Source of the DNA: Tuwongella immobilis
Lineage (GTDB): Bacteria; Planctomycetota; Planctomycetia; Gemmatales; Gemmataceae
Direction of reading: 5' to 3'
DNA length: 64,000 nt
Assembly (NCBI RefSeq): GCF_901538355.1
Contig: NZ_LR593887.1
Location: 5,432,920-5,496,919 of the forward strand
This document shows, one piece after another, positions 13,553-23,503 of the stretch. A program made the position numbers and the translations under genes. The notes under the pieces are model-generated. The model worked only from the letters and a program-made list of their open reading frames with translations. It was not told the DNA's origin and did no database searches. Numbering within the stretch: position 1 is the first letter of the stretch; each line of letters opens with the position of its first letter.

Positions 13553-14431
13553 TTATTTTCGCTTGGCGATGGCGCGTTGGACGGCCACACCCAAGTCCGC
13601 AGGCGTTTCGGCGACTTCGATTCCGGCCTTCTTGAGTGCCTCGATCTTGTCTTTGGCCGATCCGCTGCTCCCTTCGACGATGGCACCGGCGTGTCCCATG
13701 CGGCGTCCCGGCGGAGCGGTCACCCCGGCGATGAAGGCGGCGACGGGCTTGGTCACATGTTGGGCAACGTATTCCGCGGCGCGTTCTTCCGCCGACCCGC
13801 CGATTTCACCGATCATCAGAATGGCTTCGGTGTTGGGATCGTCTTGGAACATCTTCAGGCAGTCGATTTGGTTGGTGCCGTTGATGGGGTCACCACCGAT
13901 GCCAACGCAGGTCGATTGCCCCAGGCCGAGGCTGGACAGTTGGAACACGGCCTCGTAGGTCAGCGTGCCGGAACGGCTGATCAGACCAATGGGGCCGGGC
14001 TTGTGGATGTAGCCGGGCATAATGCCGATTTTGCATTGTCCGGGGGTGATGACGCCGGGGCAGTTAGGGCCGACCAGGCGCACGCCGGGCTTGGTTTGCA
14101 GGTAGCGCTTGACCTTGGCCATGTCGAGGACGGGGATGCCTTCGGTAATGGCGATAATCAGCGAAATACCCGCATCGGCGGCTTCGATGATGGCGGCAGC
14201 GGCGGCTGGCGGCGGAACGAAGACCATGCTGGCGTTCGCGCCGGTTTCGCGGACTGCGTCGGCGACGCTGTTGAACAGGTGGAACCCGTCCTTCATGGTG
14301 CCGCCCTTACCGGGGGTGACACCGCCGACGATTTGCGTGCCGTAATCGCGGCATTGGATGCTGTGGAAAGTGCCTGCTTTGCCCATGCCCTGGCAGATCA
14401 CTTTGGTATTTTTATCGACCAGAATGCTCAT
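13553..14431 (-). CDS. sucD: Succinyl-CoA synthetase (ADP/GDP-forming) alpha subunit
   Basis: 292 residues, near the usual 290. N-terminal CoA-binding domain with [15 protein letters not shown] and GGVTPGKGG; the ligase domain includes [12 protein letters not shown] and the active-site His in [13 protein letters not shown], which is phosphorylated during catalysis. With the beta subunit it interconverts succinyl-CoA and succinate with NTP formation in the TCA cycle. GAGG lies six bases before ATG 14431. An unusual lipoprotein gene separates it from sucC. Confidence 0.97.
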
Positions 14432-14451
14432 GATTGCCTCGTGATGCGTCG

Positions 14452-15345
14452 TCAGTTACTTGTGAACCCGTCGATCTGCCAGCGGGTTCCGGATTCGTCG
14501 AGAACCACCTTCAGACTGAATTTTTGCTTGCGGTCGCCATCGAACAACTCGCCTTCAATGAGGGCGGTTTTGCCTTCGACGGCATGGGTCAGCACGGAGT
14601 AGCCTTTGAAGCTCTTGTACGCACTGAGTTTGGTTTGAAGGAATGTGGCATCGTAGGGCATGCCGCGCGCTTTATCCGCCGGGGTGGGATCGCCGCCCAT
14701 GGCTTGACAGAGTCGCGGGGTCATGAGCATCGGTGCCAGATTCGGGGCTGTTCCGGCCAGAACCACTTCCAAAAAGGCTTGTCCCACGAGGATGGGCTGC
14801 ATCTGATCCAACGGAATCGGCTTGCCTTCCGGCATGCGGACTTCCACCGGCGAGCGATGGAACCAACGCACCTGATACGTCCCCGTCCCTTCTCGGCCAA
14901 TCCAGAGCGTGAAAAACTCGGTGGTGGGGGCTTTATCGACCAGTCCGCGATACCACAGCGAGGGACTATCGGGCAGACCGACCTCGCTGATGATTCGGAA
15001 CTCGACATCTTTGCCCTGCTTGGCGAGCCATTCTTGGACTTTCTCGGTGACGTAGCCCAATTTCTTTTCGCTCTCCAGAACCGGAGGCGCGATTTGGGCG
15101 AGAAAATCGGTGCGAATGGACTCCAAAGCCACTTTGTTTTCCGTGAGCTGTTTGACCAATTCGTCGGCGAAATCCTTGGCAGATTTCGGTTTTGCCGGTG
15201 CCGGGAGAGACGGCGTTTCGGGCTTGCTGACCGTGGTTGCGGGGGCAGTTGTGGCGGTGCTGGGCACGCTCGTGGAGCAGCCCGACGCCGTCAGCAACAA
15301 TCCCACCATGCCACCCAGAATCGACCAGTTGCGTGCTTGCATCAT
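14452..15345 (-). CDS. Uncharacterised lipoprotein encoded between sucC and sucD
   Basis: 297 residues from ATG 15345 with GGAGG eight bases upstream. A signal peptide ending [11 protein letters not shown] gives a good lipobox (Cys23). A Thr/Ala/Pro-rich linker runs to about residue 55, followed by a mixed alpha/beta domain with no motif I recognise. Gaps are 32 bp to sucC and 20 bp to sucD, so it is probably cotranscribed with the TCA enzyme genes. Nothing suggests it is part of the cytoplasmic synthetase. It may simply be a planctomycete envelope protein inserted into the operon. Confidence 0.75.
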
Positions 15346-15377
15346 GGGTCAGACCTCCGTGCGGATTCTCGGGGAAC

Positions 15378-16574
<1,197 letters not shown>

Positions 16575-16858: not shown

Positions 16859-18748
16859 TCAGTCGCTGCGATCGCGCAAATGCAGCGAGCGTGCCCCGAT
16901 TCGGGCGAGGAATCGGGCTTTTTGCCGGGTGCTCAGTTCATCGGTAAATCGTCCCCGCACCGATTCCAGCCAGCGAACCGGGCGCGTGGTGTATTGCGTT
17001 CGCACACGAATCAGAATTGGCCCCGGGCACGCCAGCGCATGCCGCACCTGGGCATCCAAATTCCCCGGCTGATGGATCTCCAGATAGCCAATGCCCAACC
17101 CGCGAGCCAAGCTGCAATAATCCATTTTCGCCAACACCGTCGCGGTCGTGCGACCATACGCCGGTTGTTGCAGCAACTGCATGTAGTGATAGGTGTGATC
17201 GTCCAGCACGAAGAATTTCACTGGGATCTGTTCGCGGGCCGCTGTCGATAACTCCAACGCAGACATCAGGAAACAGCCATCCCCGGTCAGCGTCGCCACC
17301 ACTCGCCCCGGACAGGCCACCGCCCCGCCAATCGCCGCAGGAATGCTCCACCCCATCGCTTGATTATCGGTCGGATTGAAGTACGTTCGCGGCAGACAAG
17401 TGGTGTACGCCTCCGCTGCGGTATGTTCGGAAACGGTGACATCCACGTAGAATAATCCATTCGCCGGAATCGCCCGCCGCAGCGCCAGAATCAGCGCCGT
17501 CGGCTCCACTCCGGAATCGGTCCGCAGATCGCGCGCATGCTCGGCGGCATCGTCGGCCTTCAGCGTGGCAATCCGATTGAGCAGCCGTTCATCGGTCGGC
17601 CGACGGATCATCTCGCCACAACCCAGCAGTCGTTGCAAGAAGACATTCGCATCCGCATGCACCTTGACATCCGTTTGCAACACCTGCCCCAAATTGCAGG
17701 CATTGGCATCGACATGGATCACCGTTTTCGGCTGCGGATTGGAATAAAAGCCCGTCGAAACTTCGGAGAATTTCACACCGATGGCCAAAAGCGTGTCCAC
17801 CCCGCTCCGAAACGGATGCAGCGGCTCGCCGGCAAAAATCTTCTCAGCGGTGCGCGTCGCATGCGCACCATAACCCCAGCCGACGGCAAGCCGATGCGTC
17901 TCGGGAATGCACCCCTTGCCGGAAACACTCGTTGCTACGGGCGCTTGCAACAGCTCCGCCACACAAGCGAGCGTCGGCCCACTATCCATGCAGCCCAGCC
18001 CCGCGTAGATTCCCACCCGACGGCGCGGATCGCGCAGAATCGCCAGCGCGGCCTGAAAATTCGCCTCATCCCACGGAACCGGCTGCGGGCCTCGTGGCGG
18101 CGAATGCACCCCGGCTTTCTCGATGAACAGCGTCCAGGGGATCACCACCGCCACCGGCCCCGGCTCACCGCATTTCGCCTGAGCGAATGCCGTGCGGATG
18201 GCATCGGGAATCTGCTCCACACTTTCGACCAGATAGACGGCCTTGGTCACCGGCTTGAGCAGCGCAACCTGATCCAGCGCATGCACTTGGAACGGCCGAT
18301 ATTTCTCGCCACGGGCAATATCGCCGACAATCGCCACCAGCGGAATGCTATCTAGCAGCGCCTCGCCCAGGCCGGTCATCGCGTTGGTGACTCCGGGGCC
18401 GGGCACCACGCACAGCACGCCGGGCTGCCCCGAAGCGCGAGCATATCCATCGGCCATGCACGAGGCGGAAAATTCATGGGTGACCAGAAGATAGTCCAAC
18501 CCACGCTGTTTGAAGGTATCCCAGAGTTCGTTTTCTTGGGCACCGGGGATGCCGAACACGCAGCGTACCCCTTCGGATCGCAACGTATCGACCACCGCCA
18601 TGGCTCCGGTGAGTGAGCCGGTGACGGTGCCATCGGCACGCAAGCCGTGGATTTCTGCGGAGGCCGATTGCGTGGTGCTGACAGCGGCCGCGCCGGTCAG
18701 CAGGGCCGTGGATTGGATCCAATCGCGTCGATTCAAGCGGAATTCCAT
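16859..18748 (-). CDS. Tat-exported thiamine-diphosphate enzyme (acetolactate synthase-like)
   Basis: 629 residues from ATG 18748, GAGGG seven bases upstream. Residues 1-31 are a twin-arginine signal: NRRDWIQS, then a hydrophobic Ala-rich stretch ending TQSASA. The rest is a three-domain ThDP enzyme: PYR domain with catalytic Glu92 in VTHEFSASCMADGYAR, a central nucleotide-binding-like domain, and a PP domain with the GDG motif (LTGDGCFLMSALEL). The closing NN of the ThDP motif is DD here (FVLDDHTYHY). Relatives are acetolactate synthase, phosphonopyruvate decarboxylase and sulfopyruvate-type enzymes. A cofactor-loaded, folded enzyme exported by Tat is unusual; the substrate is unknown. A strong terminator follows. 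Confidence 0.85.
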   Translation of the reverse strand: MEFRLNRRDWIQSTALLTGAAAVSTTQSASAEIHGLRADGTVTGSLTGAMAVVDTLRSEGVRCVFGIPGAQENELWDTFKQRGLDYLLVTHEFSASCMADGYARASGQPGVLCVVPGPGVTNAMTGLGEALLDSIPLVAIVGDIARGEKYRPFQVHALDQVALLKPVTKAVYLVESVEQIPDAIRTAFAQAKCGEPGPVAVVIPWTLFIEKAGVHSPPRGPQPVPWDEANFQAALAILRDPRRRVGIYAGLGCMDSGPTLACVAELLQAPVATSVSGKGCIPETHRLAVGWGYGAHATRTAEKIFAGEPLHPFRSGVDTLLAIGVKFSEVSTGFYSNPQPKTVIHVDANACNLGQVLQTDVKVHADANVFLQRLLGCGEMIRRPTDERLLNRIATLKADDAAEHARDLRTDSGVEPTALILALRRAIPANGLFYVDVTVSEHTAAEAYTTCLPRTYFNPTDNQAMGWSIPAAIGGAVACPGRVVATLTGDGCFLMSALELSTAAREQIPVKFFVLDDHTYHYMQLLQQPAYGRTTATVLAKMDYCSLARGLGIGYLEIHQPGNLDAQVRHALACPGPILIRVRTQYTTRPVRWLESVRGRFTDELSTRQKARFLARIGARSLHLRDRSD

Positions 18749-18817
18749 GGCGATCCCTCGCAACTAGCCGACAATCCTGGTCTGTCGGGTTGCATCGACT
18801 GGGACCGTTGCTGGAAA

Positions 18818-19408
18818 TCACACTGTCGGCGGCGAAGCGGGGGGATTGCTCGGCAGCGCACCGGCAGGGTCGGCGGTATCCGCGCAGTTTCTCGAATCCG
18901 GCGACTTCGGCGACGATTCCCGGCCATTGGCACGCATGCCCAATTCCACCCGCGGCGGAAACGCACAGGGAATCTCCGCATCCGGGCTGGAATCGACCAA
19001 CGGAATGCTGGTCGTCGGTTCGGCCAACACTTCCGCAAGAGTTGTCTTTGCGAACGAATCTTCGACCATCGCCAACGCATTGTCCAACCGCGCATGCAAC
19101 GGGCACAATTTCACGCCATGCGATTTCAGCCCCAGCGGGCAGGTGCGGATTCGGCGGATGGGATCGACCGCTTGCACCACTTCCAGAATCGATAATTCTG
19201 CCGGATCGCGATGCAGACAGACGCCGCCCCCCACGCCCCGCTGCGATTTCAGAACCCCCGCCCGAGTCAGGCTTTGCAGCACTTTCGCCAAATATGCGGG
19301 GGGCACCTTCGTGGCGGTGGCCACATCTTCGGTGGTCGCCGGCTTCCCCGGTTGGCCCGCCAAGTACGCCACCGCACGCAATGCATATTCGACGGTCTGC
19401 GAGAACAT
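18818..19408 (-). CDS. Rrf2-family transcriptional regulator
   Basis: 196 residues from ATG 19408 (MFSQTVEYALRAVAYLA). Winged-helix region with KVPPAYLAKVLQSLTRAGVLKSQRG and GGVCLHRDPAELSILEVV, the hallmark of Rrf2/NsrR/IscR proteins. Cys residues lie in RTCPLGLKSHGVKLCPLHARL, but the spacing is not the canonical three-Cys iron-sulfur cluster of NsrR or IscR. Residues beyond about 140 form a Ser/Pro-rich tail that is longer than usual. It is divergent from a protoglobin gene; Rrf2 proteins such as NsrR often control NO- or redox-response haem proteins, so it likely regulates that neighbour. Confidence 0.88.
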   Translation of the reverse strand: MFSQTVEYALRAVAYLAGQPGKPATTEDVATATKVPPAYLAKVLQSLTRAGVLKSQRGVGGGVCLHRDPAELSILEVVQAVDPIRRIRTCPLGLKSHGVKLCPLHARLDNALAMVEDSFAKTTLAEVLAEPTTSIPLVDSSPDAEIPCAFPPRVELGMRANGRESSPKSPDSRNCADTADPAGALPSNPPASPPTV

Positions 19409-19426
19409 TCGGACCCTTTCCAAAAA

Positions 19427-19529: not shown

Positions 19530-20126
19530 ATGCAACACATTGATGAAGCACGTCTGGAAACGGATCTGGCGTATCGCTTTGAGTATCTGGCGACGTTCAT
19601 GAATTTCACGGCGGCCGATATCGCCGTCATTCACGCCTCGGCTCCGCTGTTGGCCCCGCTGGTGCCCTCGCTGGTGGATGCGGTGTATGCCAAGTTGCAG
19701 CAACAAGATGCGACCTGGCGGCACTTTGTGCCTCGGCAGTTTGGCTATGATGGTGCCTTGCCGCAGAGCGTGGATACGCTGTCGATGGATGATCCGCAAA
19801 TTCAATTCCGCAAGGAACATTTGGGCCGCTATCTCGCCGCCCTGGTCACACGCCCGTATGACGGCAAGATGGTGCAGTATCTCGACATGGTCGGCAAGAT
19901 TCACACGAACAAGGCCGGCTCCAAGGAACTGCAAATTCCGCTGGTGCAAATGAATGCGCTCATGGGATTTGTGGCCGATGCCTTCATTGCCACCATCATC
20001 GGATTGAAGCTCGACCGCACCACCGAAGTGGCCGCCCTCCGAGCGTTCAGCAAACTGCTGTGGCTGCAAAACGATCTGATCGTCCGCCACTATGCCGCCG
20101 CGGCGGAAGAATTGGCGGCTGTCTAA
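19530..20126 (+). CDS. Protoglobin-family haem protein (globin-coupled sensor fold, single domain)
   Basis: 198 residues, whole length globin-like. Segments resembling protoglobin include FRKEHLGRYLAALVTRPYDGKMVQYLDMVGKIHTNKAG in pieces: the KIHTNKAG stretch holds the His expected as proximal haem ligand, and LQIPLVQMNALMGFVADAF forms a later helix. Protoglobins bind O2, CO and NO. No output domain follows, so it is more likely a gas-binding or detoxifying protein than a sensor kinase. It faces an Rrf2-type regulator with repeated operator-like sites between them. Confidence 0.85.
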   Translation: MQHIDEARLETDLAYRFEYLATFMNFTAADIAVIHASAPLLAPLVPSLVDAVYAKLQQQDATWRHFVPRQFGYDGALPQSVDTLSMDDPQIQFRKEHLGRYLAALVTRPYDGKMVQYLDMVGKIHTNKAGSKELQIPLVQMNALMGFVADAFIATIIGLKLDRTTEVAALRAFSKLLWLQNDLIVRHYAAAAEELAAV

Positions 20127-20257: not shown

Positions 20258-21844
20258 CTAACTGGTCGCTGGGGCAGTTCCCGGCTGCCGAGGTGGATTG
20301 GTCCAGCCCAACGTCTCACGCACCACTTCCGGCTGCAAGTATGAGAGCAGCAACGTCATCATCAGCATGCAAAACACGGTCAGCCCCATGAAGATGGCAA
20401 TGCTGAAGTGCAGCAGCAACCCGCCAATGACGACATACGGCCGCGCTTTGGTCCACACCAAGCAGACCAACGCCAATTCCAGCGCGAAGGTGAACACAAT
20501 CCCCGACGCCGAGAAGAGTTCCGTCGCAAAGCGACTGCTGGCGAGTGCATCAACCGCCGTGCGATACCCCAACACGGGGAACGGCGAGAATTCCGGATTC
20601 ACCAGCGTTCGCCACAATGCCGTGTGATTCCACCAGGCATCCCCCTTCAGCTTCGACATCCCCGAGGCGGTGTAGATGAAGCAGAAGTGGATCTGGAACA
20701 ACCGCGTGACGAAGCCGGCAAGCATCGATTTCGCCGGTGCGTGCAACAGAGCGACGGTCTCCGGGTCGGTCGCACTGCGTTTGCCAGCGGCGATCTCCGC
20801 ACGAATCTTCCGCACTTCCCGCAGTCGATCCAACGACAACGCCGCCCCGCTTGGCCCAATGGTCAGATACACCATCAGAATGTTCAACATGGTATCCATG
20901 CCGAACAGCAGTTGTTGCGAGCGGTGGATCATGTTCAGCAGCACCAACCATGCCAGCACGCTGGTGATGCGGGTGTAATAGCCCACCGTGAACAGAGCAA
21001 CCACCACGAACGAGAACACATGCACGGCGATCATCGCTGGCAGCGACTGCAAATGGAACCACGTCGACCAGACAGGCCGCCCCTGCACATAGGTTTGCGC
21101 CGGATCGAGATTCCAATAGTTGATGTAATCGATGATGCGATTTCGCTCGGCGGAATCCGCTGGCAATCGCAACAGGAGTTCGAGCGTTCGCGTGCGGAAA
21201 TCCGGGGCCATTTCCACGAAGTACTGCACGATGTAGCTTCGGGCTTGCTTGTCGGCGGGGAGCAAGTCGAGGATCCGCTCGACGGCCTTCCGCATTTCCA
21301 CCCGCTTTTCTTTGGGCAGAATCGTGATGAACGGCGGCACCTCGGTCGAGGGATTTTCCGGGGTATGCGGCACGGTCAGAATCAGATCCAAACGAGCCGC
21401 CCGATCCTCATCATCCACCGGCATCAGATCCAAAAAGCTCAGCCCGGCTCGCATGGCATCGGAATCATTGGGAACCAGCCGGGCCAGATACTCCAACGCC
21501 TGTTCGCGTTGGGTTTGCTCACTCGGCAATTTCCGCAAGAACTCCACCACCGCATCCCGGCGATGCTGGGCATCCGGCAAGCGGATATTCGGGAGCGTCG
21601 GCTCCCAACTCCAACGATTGTAAATGTAACCAATTTCCTTGCGTTCCTTATTGATCGCCTCATGCGACCACCACGCATTCGGGCCGTAGCCTTCCGTGAG
21701 GTCAAACGACATGGCGAACAACAGATACAGGAATAATGCGCCGCTGCACAGACGCATCAATCCGAGCATGGTCGGATCTTTGGGGGTAAACCAAAACCGC
21801 AGCCACGCATTGGGCAATGGCGTTGGTTGCGAAGCGCTGGCCAT
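20258..21844 (-). CDS. HTTM-domain membrane protein (vitamin K-dependent carboxylase-like)
   Basis: 528 residues. About six to eight hydrophobic segments: one near residues 28-48, then a long soluble helical insert (about 55-245) absent from minimal HTTM proteins, then clusters around AVHVFSFVVVALFTVGYYTRI, a middle GMDTMLNILMVYLTIGPSG motif, and QIHFCFIYTASGMSKLKGDAWW, the signature of HTTM (PF05090-related). Such proteins resemble gamma-carboxylase membrane domains, but activity is unproven in bacteria. Its ATG overlaps the stop of the upstream gene by one base (TAATG at 21842-21846), indicating coupled translation. Confidence 0.82.
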   Translation of the reverse strand: MASASQPTPLPNAWLRFWFTPKDPTMLGLMRLCSGALFLYLLFAMSFDLTEGYGPNAWWSHEAINKERKEIGYIYNRWSWEPTLPNIRLPDAQHRRDAVVEFLRKLPSEQTQREQALEYLARLVPNDSDAMRAGLSFLDLMPVDDEDRAARLDLILTVPHTPENPSTEVPPFITILPKEKRVEMRKAVERILDLLPADKQARSYIVQYFVEMAPDFRTRTLELLLRLPADSAERNRIIDYINYWNLDPAQTYVQGRPVWSTWFHLQSLPAMIAVHVFSFVVVALFTVGYYTRITSVLAWLVLLNMIHRSQQLLFGMDTMLNILMVYLTIGPSGAALSLDRLREVRKIRAEIAAGKRSATDPETVALLHAPAKSMLAGFVTRLFQIHFCFIYTASGMSKLKGDAWWNHTALWRTLVNPEFSPFPVLGYRTAVDALASSRFATELFSASGIVFTFALELALVCLVWTKARPYVVIGGLLLHFSIAIFMGLTVFCMLMMTLLLSYLQPEVVRETLGWTNPPRQPGTAPATS

Positions 21845-23052
21845 TATTTGTACCCTCCATGGTCCGAACCGGCATGCTTGGTCACATAGTCTTCCACCAC
21901 GATTTCCGTCCCCGGCGGAACGATTCCATCCGGCGGCACCGAGCCGAGTTTGGGCCGCGCCAGAATGGGCACCGTCCAGAACAGCATCGGATCGCGCGAA
22001 TCCACCAGCCGCCCCGTGGCATCGTATTCGCCCTGGAAGTACGGCAGATAGGTCATGGGATCATACGGCCCGGCACCCTTGGCATATTCCGAAGGATCGG
22101 GGATGCGGTGCAACACGCGGTAGATTTTCACCGAGATTGGCTTCAGACCATCCGGATGCGGCAAGCTCATCAAATGCTTGGCATACGATGGGAGCAATTG
22201 ACGCTGAATTTCCGGCGTGGGTGGCCGATATTGCAGCGCAGTCGGAAGAATCGGGTGGAACGGGATATCCGCTCGCAATTGCCGACGCCGCTGCACGTCA
22301 TTATCTTCAAACGTCAATACCGTTGGCACTTCTTGCATCAGGTTGGGCGCCTCGGTCAGCGCCAAGCGGCGGTAGTACCCCACCCCCAGCGGATCGCGGA
22401 AATCTTCCGGTCGACGCGGAATTTTCACCCACCGAAACCGTTTGGATTCATCCGGGGTGTCGTATTTGATGCACGACCAAAGTTGATTCGCAGGCCCGGG
22501 TTCCGGCGAATAGAAGTGATAGGCGTTGTTCAGATACATCGATTGCAAATACGGGCGATAGAACTTCACCCAAATCTGTTGCGAGAGAAACGGTTGCGGC
22601 GGCGGCGAGGTGACCGCGACGAGAATTCCGCCAAAGTGAACGACCGCCAGCAGGCTGACCACCACCAGCCGAGTCATCGGCGGCAACACCGCAATGAACG
22701 CGCCCACCGCATACGCGATTGCCACGATCGACGCCAGAATCCGCAGGCTATCCCAGGAATCCGAGACGGCACCGCGTGCCAAAAGTGCAGCCACCACGCC
22801 CGACGCCCAGGCCAAGGGGTTGCGATATTCCGTGGTCAGGCCAACGCCGTGGATTACCACACCGATTGTCGCCAAGAGCAGCAGTCCGCTGTCGGCAACG
22901 CTTGTTCCGGTTGGCAGGATCCAGGCCAACCCGCTCGCCACCGCAGACACGATCAATCCCACCATCAACCAACCATTGCGGGGGATTTCCAACAGGCGGG
23001 GCGAGTGGTGCCCTGTTGGAGTGATCCGTTGAGGTTGCGAATCCGTCGCCAT
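21844..23052 (-). CDS. Membrane protein partner of the HTTM protein
   Basis: 402 residues from ATG 23052, with a strong GGAGGAG five to eleven bases upstream. About four or five membrane segments in residues 25-145 (for example WLMVGLIVSAVASGLAWILP), then a large extracytoplasmic domain beginning QIWVKFYRPYLQSMYLNNAYHFYSPEPGPANQLW. I know this as the recurrent companion of planctomycete HTTM proteins but not its function. One-base overlap with the HTTM gene suggests a stoichiometric complex. Confidence 0.75.
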   Translation of the reverse strand: MATDSQPQRITPTGHHSPRLLEIPRNGWLMVGLIVSAVASGLAWILPTGTSVADSGLLLLATIGVVIHGVGLTTEYRNPLAWASGVVAALLARGAVSDSWDSLRILASIVAIAYAVGAFIAVLPPMTRLVVVSLLAVVHFGGILVAVTSPPPQPFLSQQIWVKFYRPYLQSMYLNNAYHFYSPEPGPANQLWSCIKYDTPDESKRFRWVKIPRRPEDFRDPLGVGYYRRLALTEAPNLMQEVPTVLTFEDNDVQRRRQLRADIPFHPILPTALQYRPPTPEIQRQLLPSYAKHLMSLPHPDGLKPISVKIYRVLHRIPDPSEYAKGAGPYDPMTYLPYFQGEYDATGRLVDSRDPMLFWTVPILARPKLGSVPPDGIVPPGTEIVVEDYVTKHAGSDHGGYK

Positions 23053-23503
23053 GTCTCCTCCTTCCCCATCGGCGGGCGAATCGAATGCCAACGCGCCGCG
23101 CTGGGAGTCTGTTTCTACATACTCGATCGACCGACAAGCGTTGGCGGCTTCCTTTCTTTTCTGGGAAGCGGCCTCCCAGCCACAAGAATTCTCGCGTCTG
23201 GACGGTAAACCCGGACAATTCTCTCCGATTTCAGATGATTCCAGATGTGGACTATCACAAACTAACCCCGACGCACATTTTTCGCAGATCGCCCGGTTTA
23301 CTCTTGACGAAGAAATTGCCTATCTTTACTATTGTCCTCACTCAGCGAGAATTACCCTAACCATCCCGCATCCGGAACAGAGGTTTTCGTTCCCTATTGA
23401 CTGGTATGGAACACCTTTGATGGCGGGGTGGTCGGCATTTCGCCGAACCAACGCATCGAGCGTTGTTAGACTGTGCTGAGTAGGTACCTAAGAGGTTGCA
23501 AGC
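23053..23503. other. 451-bp intergenic region upstream of the Cys-rich repeat gene
   Basis: More AT-rich than its surroundings. A 142-codon frame runs through it but shows no family features and starts on the divergent promoter. A TTGACG (23304) and TACTAT (23327) pair with 17-bp spacing is a candidate promoter for the plus-strand gene at 23504, leaving a leader of about 165 nt. No gene seen. Confidence 0.45.

Follow-up and report, generated by a model that had tools for sequence, protein, structure and literature searches.

Positions 16859–18748 of the window (the whole 64 000-nucleotide stretch of Tuwongella immobilis DNA that was analysed) encode a protein of the acetolactate-synthase type that begins with a twin-arginine (Tat) leader. 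From its sequence we infer that it is probably a stand-alone 2-oxo-acid decarboxylase or carboligase that is loaded with its cofactors in the cytoplasm and then exported by the Tat pathway. The fold of the thiamine diphosphate (ThDP) enzymes, the catalytic glutamate, the metal/ThDP motif, a conserved Tat leader and the clade to which the protein belongs are apparent from the sequence or from the structure model.

Gene and domain organization

The gene lies on the minus strand, with an ATG at 18748..18746 and a stop ending at 16859, and frame 1 of the plus strand across the same interval is interrupted by stops. An earlier note on this DNA had given the correct coordinates and left the strand unstated. 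The domains TPP_enzyme_N, TPP_enzyme_M and TPP_enzyme_C all score above their Pfam cut-offs (Table 1), which places the protein in the ThDP enzyme superfamily. Together with Glu92 they confirm what that note had described as an acetolactate-synthase-like ThDP protein with its catalytic glutamate intact. The leading NCBIfam matches are TIGR00118 (304.8 bits, cut-off 538.35) and an unnamed subfamily (301.5 bits, cut-off 571); since none of the best 25 of the 56 matches reaches its cut-off, a reaction is not assignable from NCBIfam.

The AlphaFold2 model, which was run on a 30-row alignment, has a pLDDT of 84.1 and a pTM of 0.85, with pLDDT values under 50 at residues 1–5, 16–33 and 620–629. The conserved C-terminal arm contains Trp593, Arg616 and Arg620, each present in 81/81 aligned rows, and might be an active-site clamp or a surface-binding element.

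Residue counts refer to an alignment of 88 rows consisting of the window, 67 related loci from a scan of named genomes and 20 stretches from two other families. Rows L131 and L132 are apparent duplicates of L055 and L063, and some rows are contig-edge fragments.

Table 1. Features of the enzyme gene and its upstream neighbour (positions in the window; residue numbers refer to the 629-residue protein)
Feature	Coordinates	Strand	Evidence
Tat-leader ThDP enzyme gene, 629 aa	16859..18748	−	translation; Pfam; AlphaFold2 model
Twin-arginine leader, residues 1–31, A-S-A end	18656..18748	−	translation; RR 86/86; low pLDDT 16–33
Arg7-Arg8	18725..18730	−	R in 86/86 rows with letters
GAGGG, possible ribosome-binding site, 6 nt 5′ of ATG	18755..18759	−	sequence by eye
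TPP_enzyme_N domain, residues 47–162	18263..18610	−	PF02776, 117.5 bits vs cut-off 26.8
Catalytic Glu92	18473..18475	−	E in 86/86 rows with letters
TPP_enzyme_M domain, residues 234–374	17627..18049	−	PF00205, 74.3 bits vs cut-off 30.4
Val330, at AHAS conserved Arg position (Arabidopsis R377)	17759..17761	−	alignment; V 81, T 3 of 84
TPP_enzyme_C domain, residues 439–582	17003..17434	−	PF02775, 112 bits vs cut-off 21.9
GDG of metal/ThDP motif, residues 489–491	17276..17284	−	D490 in 84/84 rows
Asp516-Asp517 (DD)	17198..17203	−	D516 81/83 (1 E, 1 V), D517 82/83 (1 N)
Leu526, at AHAS Trp position (Arabidopsis W574)	17171..17173	−	alignment with W574L structure 7u25; L 82, F 1 of 83
Conserved C-terminal arm, residues 590–629	16862..16981	−	two predicted helices, 592–603 and 607–621
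Rrf2-type regulator gene, 69 nt upstream of enzyme gene	18818..19423	−	PF02082, 104.4 bits

Twin-arginine leader and start codon

The leader MEFRLNRRDWIQSTALLTGAAAVSTTQSASAE consists of the two arginines, an uncharged stretch and a terminal A-S-A. Because the starts of the alignment rows had been placed near the RR pair by a script, 24 leaders at fixed coordinates were also taken, namely that of the window and those of 23 related loci that match from residue 1 onwards. Methionine is the first residue in all 24, the RR pair falls in one column, the remaining leader sequence drifts, and many end in an A-x-A-like stretch as judged by eye. At E ≤ 1 the Tat models PF10518 (TAT_signal) and TIGR01409 match 18 and 14 of the 24, respectively. 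The 45-residue leader of the window itself matches no Pfam or NCBIfam Tat model at this threshold; it has Asn directly before the RR pair and Trp as the second residue after it, positions at which Ser or Thr and Leu, respectively, are commonest. The Tat signal (NRRDWIQS) proposed in the earlier note is thus strengthened by an RR pair that is invariant throughout the family and weakened by the failure of this particular leader to match a Tat model.

A rule that demands RR within 35 residues, and after it an uncharged run of 12 or more residues with positive hydropathy, is passed by 84/86 family rows, compared with 32/532 neighbour genes called in the same loci and none of 13 ThDP paralogues, even when the sequence ahead of their likely starts is taken into account. 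Some of the 32 neighbours resemble genuine Tat proteins, and one belongs to the family. These numbers, together with the invariant RR pair, make the leader more than a product of chance. The genome of the window also encodes TatC (PF00902, 191.2 bits).

The earlier note had pointed to a methionine further in as a possible true start, which would give a cytosolic protein. An internal start at Met50 was rejected: this residue, which lies inside the first domain, is methionine in 5/86 rows with letters, one of them the window, and a GAGGG precedes the upstream ATG (Table 1). Given the conservation of the RR pair and the leader and the scarcity of Met50, a start further in is very unlikely. Export of the enzyme from the cytoplasm is, on the strength of its leader, very probable.

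Active site

Glu92 is found in the sequence context HEFSASCMADGYAR. The GDG triplet is followed by Cys492 (82/83 rows), and the end of the motif reads LDD at residues 515–517. Glu92, Asp490 and Asp517 together provide the catalytic Glu and the GDG...N/D motif that mark the ThDP superfamily. Gln154-Val155-His156 (85/85 rows) and Tyr522 and Met523 (83/83) are also invariant. It is very likely that the enzyme uses ThDP in catalysis. Glyoxylate carboligase does without the catalytic Glu, and membership of the present protein in that group was rejected, Glu92 being found in all 86 rows.

The second residue of the motif, Asp517, occupies what we take to be a Mg2+-ligand position. In solved structures it is Asp in 9zgl and 4rjj, both of them catabolic acetolactate synthases, and Asn in acetohydroxyacid synthase (AHAS). 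The aligned catabolic acetolactate synthases have ND as their motif, as do ten of 13 fetched paralogues, these ten coming from the order of the window; the other three, from the genome of the window, have NN, and DD occurs in none of the 13. The earlier note had stated that the motif ends in DD where NN is expected. The DD ending at 516–517 is confirmed and is kept family-wide. The expected NN holds for AHAS but not for the catabolic acetolactate synthases or most of the paralogues, and the phrase overstates the oddity because the second Asp also occurs in the catabolic enzymes. The second Asp therefore has precedent, and it is the first alone that is unusual among the sequences compared. The observation made in that note is hence borne out and its interpretation in part: the ThDP type and the conserved leader stand, the expectation of NN does not.

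Family distribution and phylogeny

Named loci with 52–65% identity to the enzyme include Limnoglobus roseus and Zavarzinella formosa (both Gemmataceae) and a Gemmata; Z. formosa DSM 19928 and L. roseus PX52 are named strains that carry the gene. A search of the order of the window gave a match in 87/102 genomes, the best match being a paralogue of 34–36% identity in five of these. The gene is present in 82/95 genomes of the Gemmataceae, the window's own family, and in the seven genomes of the sister family the search found nothing better than the 34% paralogue. Across the class, a search at E ≤ 1e-130 found the family in at least 126 of 397 genomes, of which at least 81 belong to the Gemmataceae, at least 42 to a second family and at least three to a third; these counts are lower bounds because three candidates per genome were scored. 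At least 45 genomes of two other planctomycete families therefore carry it, the second family being, at a guess, the Isosphaeraceae. The search for homologues with the DD variant that the earlier note had called for was successful, since both aspartates are kept across all three families (Table 1). In a phylum-wide sample, apparently one without other genomes of the window's family, two of 392 genomes (the window's own and G377) gave a match at E ≤ 1e-110. A plasmid search for outside relatives returned none above 33% identity among the matches listed (15 of 1399 records).

A tree was built from 12 paralogues and 42 family rows, of which 22 were selected among the Gemmataceae and 20 are all the rows of the two other planctomycete families. 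The family forms one clade with support of 100/99, apart from the 12 paralogues, and on this tree the enzyme defines a planctomycete clade of the acetolactate-synthase superfamily. The outgroup contains the long branches L148 and L149, which make the root unsure. The simplest reading of the tree would be that the leader-bearing form arose once.

Genomic surroundings

In the window, the enzyme gene is followed by sucC. The sucC and sucD genes (succinyl-CoA synthetase; 13553–16574, minus strand) are separated by a lipoprotein-like frame of 297 amino acids (14452–15345), for which no Pfam match was obtained at E ≤ 0.001. On the other side, the Rrf2-type regulator gene is divergent to a protoglobin gene (19533–20126, plus strand; Pfam-confirmed), and regulator and protoglobin are possibly a gas- or iron–sulphur-sensing pair. 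The 69-nt gap between the regulator and enzyme genes (18749–18817) contains a CCGACA...TGTCGG dyad, and the stretch 18735–18825 has a folding z of −3.67 relative to shuffles. The dyad could be a site for the regulator or a terminator of its gene. Two adjoining genes at 20258–23091 (minus strand) encode proteins of 528 and 415 amino acids that have the look of membrane proteins, the first of them resembling an HTTM-type protein by eye; neither has a Pfam match at E ≤ 0.001.

Pathway context in relatives was a check that the earlier note had suggested. At E ≤ 1e-5, the 11 window neighbours searched for have no match in 88 related loci, compared with 88/88 for the family protein itself. In the loci searched first there was a single weak neighbour match, ADP-ribosylglycohydrolase-like, in L042 (E = 9e-5). 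The operon logic of the window (Rrf2, protoglobin and sucCD) was consequently rejected as a family-wide context. Neighbour genes were called by codon usage; clustering of all open reading frames gave mostly shadow reading frames. In the second family (L113–L129), an ABC-2 permease gene lies downstream on the same strand in 12/17 loci and is the next gene in nine of these. In the first family, a methionine-synthase gene lies on the opposite strand 1.0–1.7 kb upstream in ten loci, and neighbours there recur within subgroups only. We read the recurrence of both genes as synteny and not as function. Among 19 neighbours scanned for domains, no redox partner or second subunit was found to travel with the enzyme gene, which argues for a non-oxidative enzyme encoded by a single gene.

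Comparison with characterized ThDP enzymes

The best match to the model in both Foldseek and VIA is BbmA (8x3x chain B; Z = 40.3, r.m.s.d. of 2.2 over 520, 28% identity). It is tied with AHAS I (6lpi chain A; Z = 39.6, r.m.s.d. of 2.5 over 519, 28% identity) when VIA rows within 1 Z are counted as ties. Benzaldehyde lyase (8y7s; Z = 39.3, r.m.s.d. of 2.4 over 538), an ancestor of the catabolic acetolactate synthases (9zgl; Z = 39.2, r.m.s.d. of 2.6 over 530), cyclohexanedione hydrolase (4d5g; Z = 38.9, r.m.s.d. of 2.5 over 542) and cyclohexane-1,2-dione hydrolase (2pgn; Z = 38.3, 21% identity) are also among the VIA rows. As the top rows are tied in Z, a reaction cannot be picked from the fold. 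BbmA, a ThDP-dependent HKA synthase, differs from the enzyme in its LNN motif and in an aligned chain that has no room for a leader.

The AHAS large subunit (TIGR00118; 6lpi and 7u25) shares with the enzyme the three-domain fold, the catalytic Glu, the FQ motif, the GDG triplet and the layout of the middle domain. The enzyme differs from it in the presence of the Tat leader, in having DD for NN, and in Leu and Val at the positions of Trp574 and Arg377, respectively. Arg377 is the second arginine of GVRFDDR in the 7u25 chain. In the AHAS I chain this Arg and the Gln that replaces the Trp are residues 289 and 480, each six below the numbering in the relevant passages of PMC5727371, with which they agree. 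According to those passages, the Trp of AHAS (Gln in AHAS I) sets the preference for 2-ketobutyrate and the conserved Arg is required for accepting the second substrate (PMC5727371, citing Engel 2004 and others). Both determinants for the second keto acid, Trp or Gln and Arg, are absent from every row with letters.

Alternative functions and locations

It is therefore very hard to see the enzyme as a biosynthetic AHAS with a mis-called or accidental leader. E. coli AHAS I is its best profile match in the PDB and TIGR00118 its best NCBIfam match, but the latter falls short of its cut-off, both second-substrate residues are gone, Met50 is unconserved, and a separate IlvB gene in the same genome scores 708.7 bits, above the TIGR00118 cut-off. 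With Trp and Arg lost and IlvB present, the sequence speaks against a branched-chain role as decisively as a sequence can, and by the same determinants, cut-off and separate gene the biosynthetic identity is refuted to that extent. A different doubt concerns location. The leader might be an uncleaved membrane anchor, or go unused by the Tat system, so that the enzyme would sit at or near the cytoplasmic face. The mismatch of the window's own leader to all Tat models would fit this, and E. coli pyruvate oxidase offers an example of a ThDP enzyme that is a peripheral membrane protein (title of 3eya). The RR pair, however, is kept in 86/86 rows while the adjacent leader positions vary, many leaders have A-x-A-like ends by eye, and the low pLDDT at residues 16–33 also speaks against an anchor, to which we give little credence.

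A further alternative is an exported acetolactate synthase of catabolic type, which could convert two pyruvates into acetolactate in the periplasm, with acetoin or diacetyl as later products. Structures 9zgl and 4rjj head the phmmer matches of the C domain and resemble the enzyme in the second Asp of the motif and in a Y-x-R-T stretch that follows it, and Glu329 of the enzyme aligns with a Glu of 9zgl. The score for the AlsS model TIGR02418 is nevertheless 203.7 bits, where 551.1 are required, and is weaker than that for TIGR00118, the position of Leu526 is occupied by Gln in 9zgl and 4rjj, and the Tat leader and the first Asp of DD further set the enzyme apart from AlsS. The AHAS-like middle domain and the catabolic-like C domain pull in different directions. 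No acetolactate decarboxylase was detected among 19 Pfam-scanned neighbours, a small part of those called, and on balance we regard a catabolic-type enzyme as unlikely. We also consider improbable a C–C hydrolase or lyase that resembles the cyclohexanedione/inositol-dione hydrolases or benzaldehyde lyase and has an extracytoplasmic cyclic dione or acyloin as its substrate. It would agree with the scores of 2pgn, 4d5g and 8y7s, which trail the top structure by no more than 2.0 Z, and with a xylose-isomerase-like TIM-barrel gene (PF01261) that is found upstream of the enzyme gene, in the same orientation, in 7/17 second-family loci (directly upstream in six). Yet the identity to 2pgn is lower than that to AHAS I (21% versus 28%), and none of nine scanned window neighbours is a TIM-barrel gene or, for that matter, an AHAS regulatory subunit. 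The TIM-barrel protein has no leader in the three starts L120, L121 and L125 and would thus be cytoplasmic.

Proposed role

We favour a Tat-exported, stand-alone enzyme, for which activity as a 2-oxo-acid decarboxylase or carboligase is likely from its sequence features. The protein would fold in the cytoplasm and take up ThDP, a divalent metal and perhaps FAD, after which the Tat pathway would carry it in folded form to the periplasmic side and its leader would be cleaved after A-S-A. There it may use a small 2-oxo acid as substrate without a redox partner. ThDP activated by Glu92 would decarboxylate this acid, and the resulting carbanion would be either protonated or joined to an acceptor, probably one other than the second keto acid used by biosynthetic AHAS. 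The proposal is cheap to test, because the gene travels alone and occurs in named strains.

ThDP enzymes are treated as enzymes of the cytosol or the organelle matrix, and the enlarged periplasm of planctomycetes is a long-standing puzzle. Tat substrates such as glucose–fructose oxidoreductase bind a soluble cofactor before export; the logic is the same as that proposed here, but the fold and the cofactor are different.

The suggestion of the earlier note that a periplasmic ThDP enzyme in a planctomycete would be new agrees with searches of open-access papers, in which no report of an exported ThDP enzyme was found. Passages of PMC3403918, PMC4103569, PMC6050957 and PMC11267869 are unrelated to such an enzyme, and those of PMC4103569 have acetolactate synthase in a reference only.

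A more ambitious reading, which we put forward tentatively and with some doubt, is that the Gemmataceae and a second planctomycete family have a near-core enzyme that may perform ThDP-dependent C–C chemistry outside the cytoplasm, with an Asp-Asp metal/ThDP site and a substrate outside the characterized ThDP families. If this reading is true, the enzyme would be the first of the ThDP enzymes for which export through Tat together with the cofactor has been demonstrated, and it would imply periplasmic 2-oxo-acid metabolism in the compartment-rich planctomycetes. The family is also a naturally occurring example of DD in place of the textbook GDG...NN motif and is as such useful for probing the role of the first residue. 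Through a member with a clade-wide Tat leader, ThDP would join the cofactors that are exported pre-bound by Tat, and such a member would point to carbon–carbon bond chemistry in the planctomycete periplasm.
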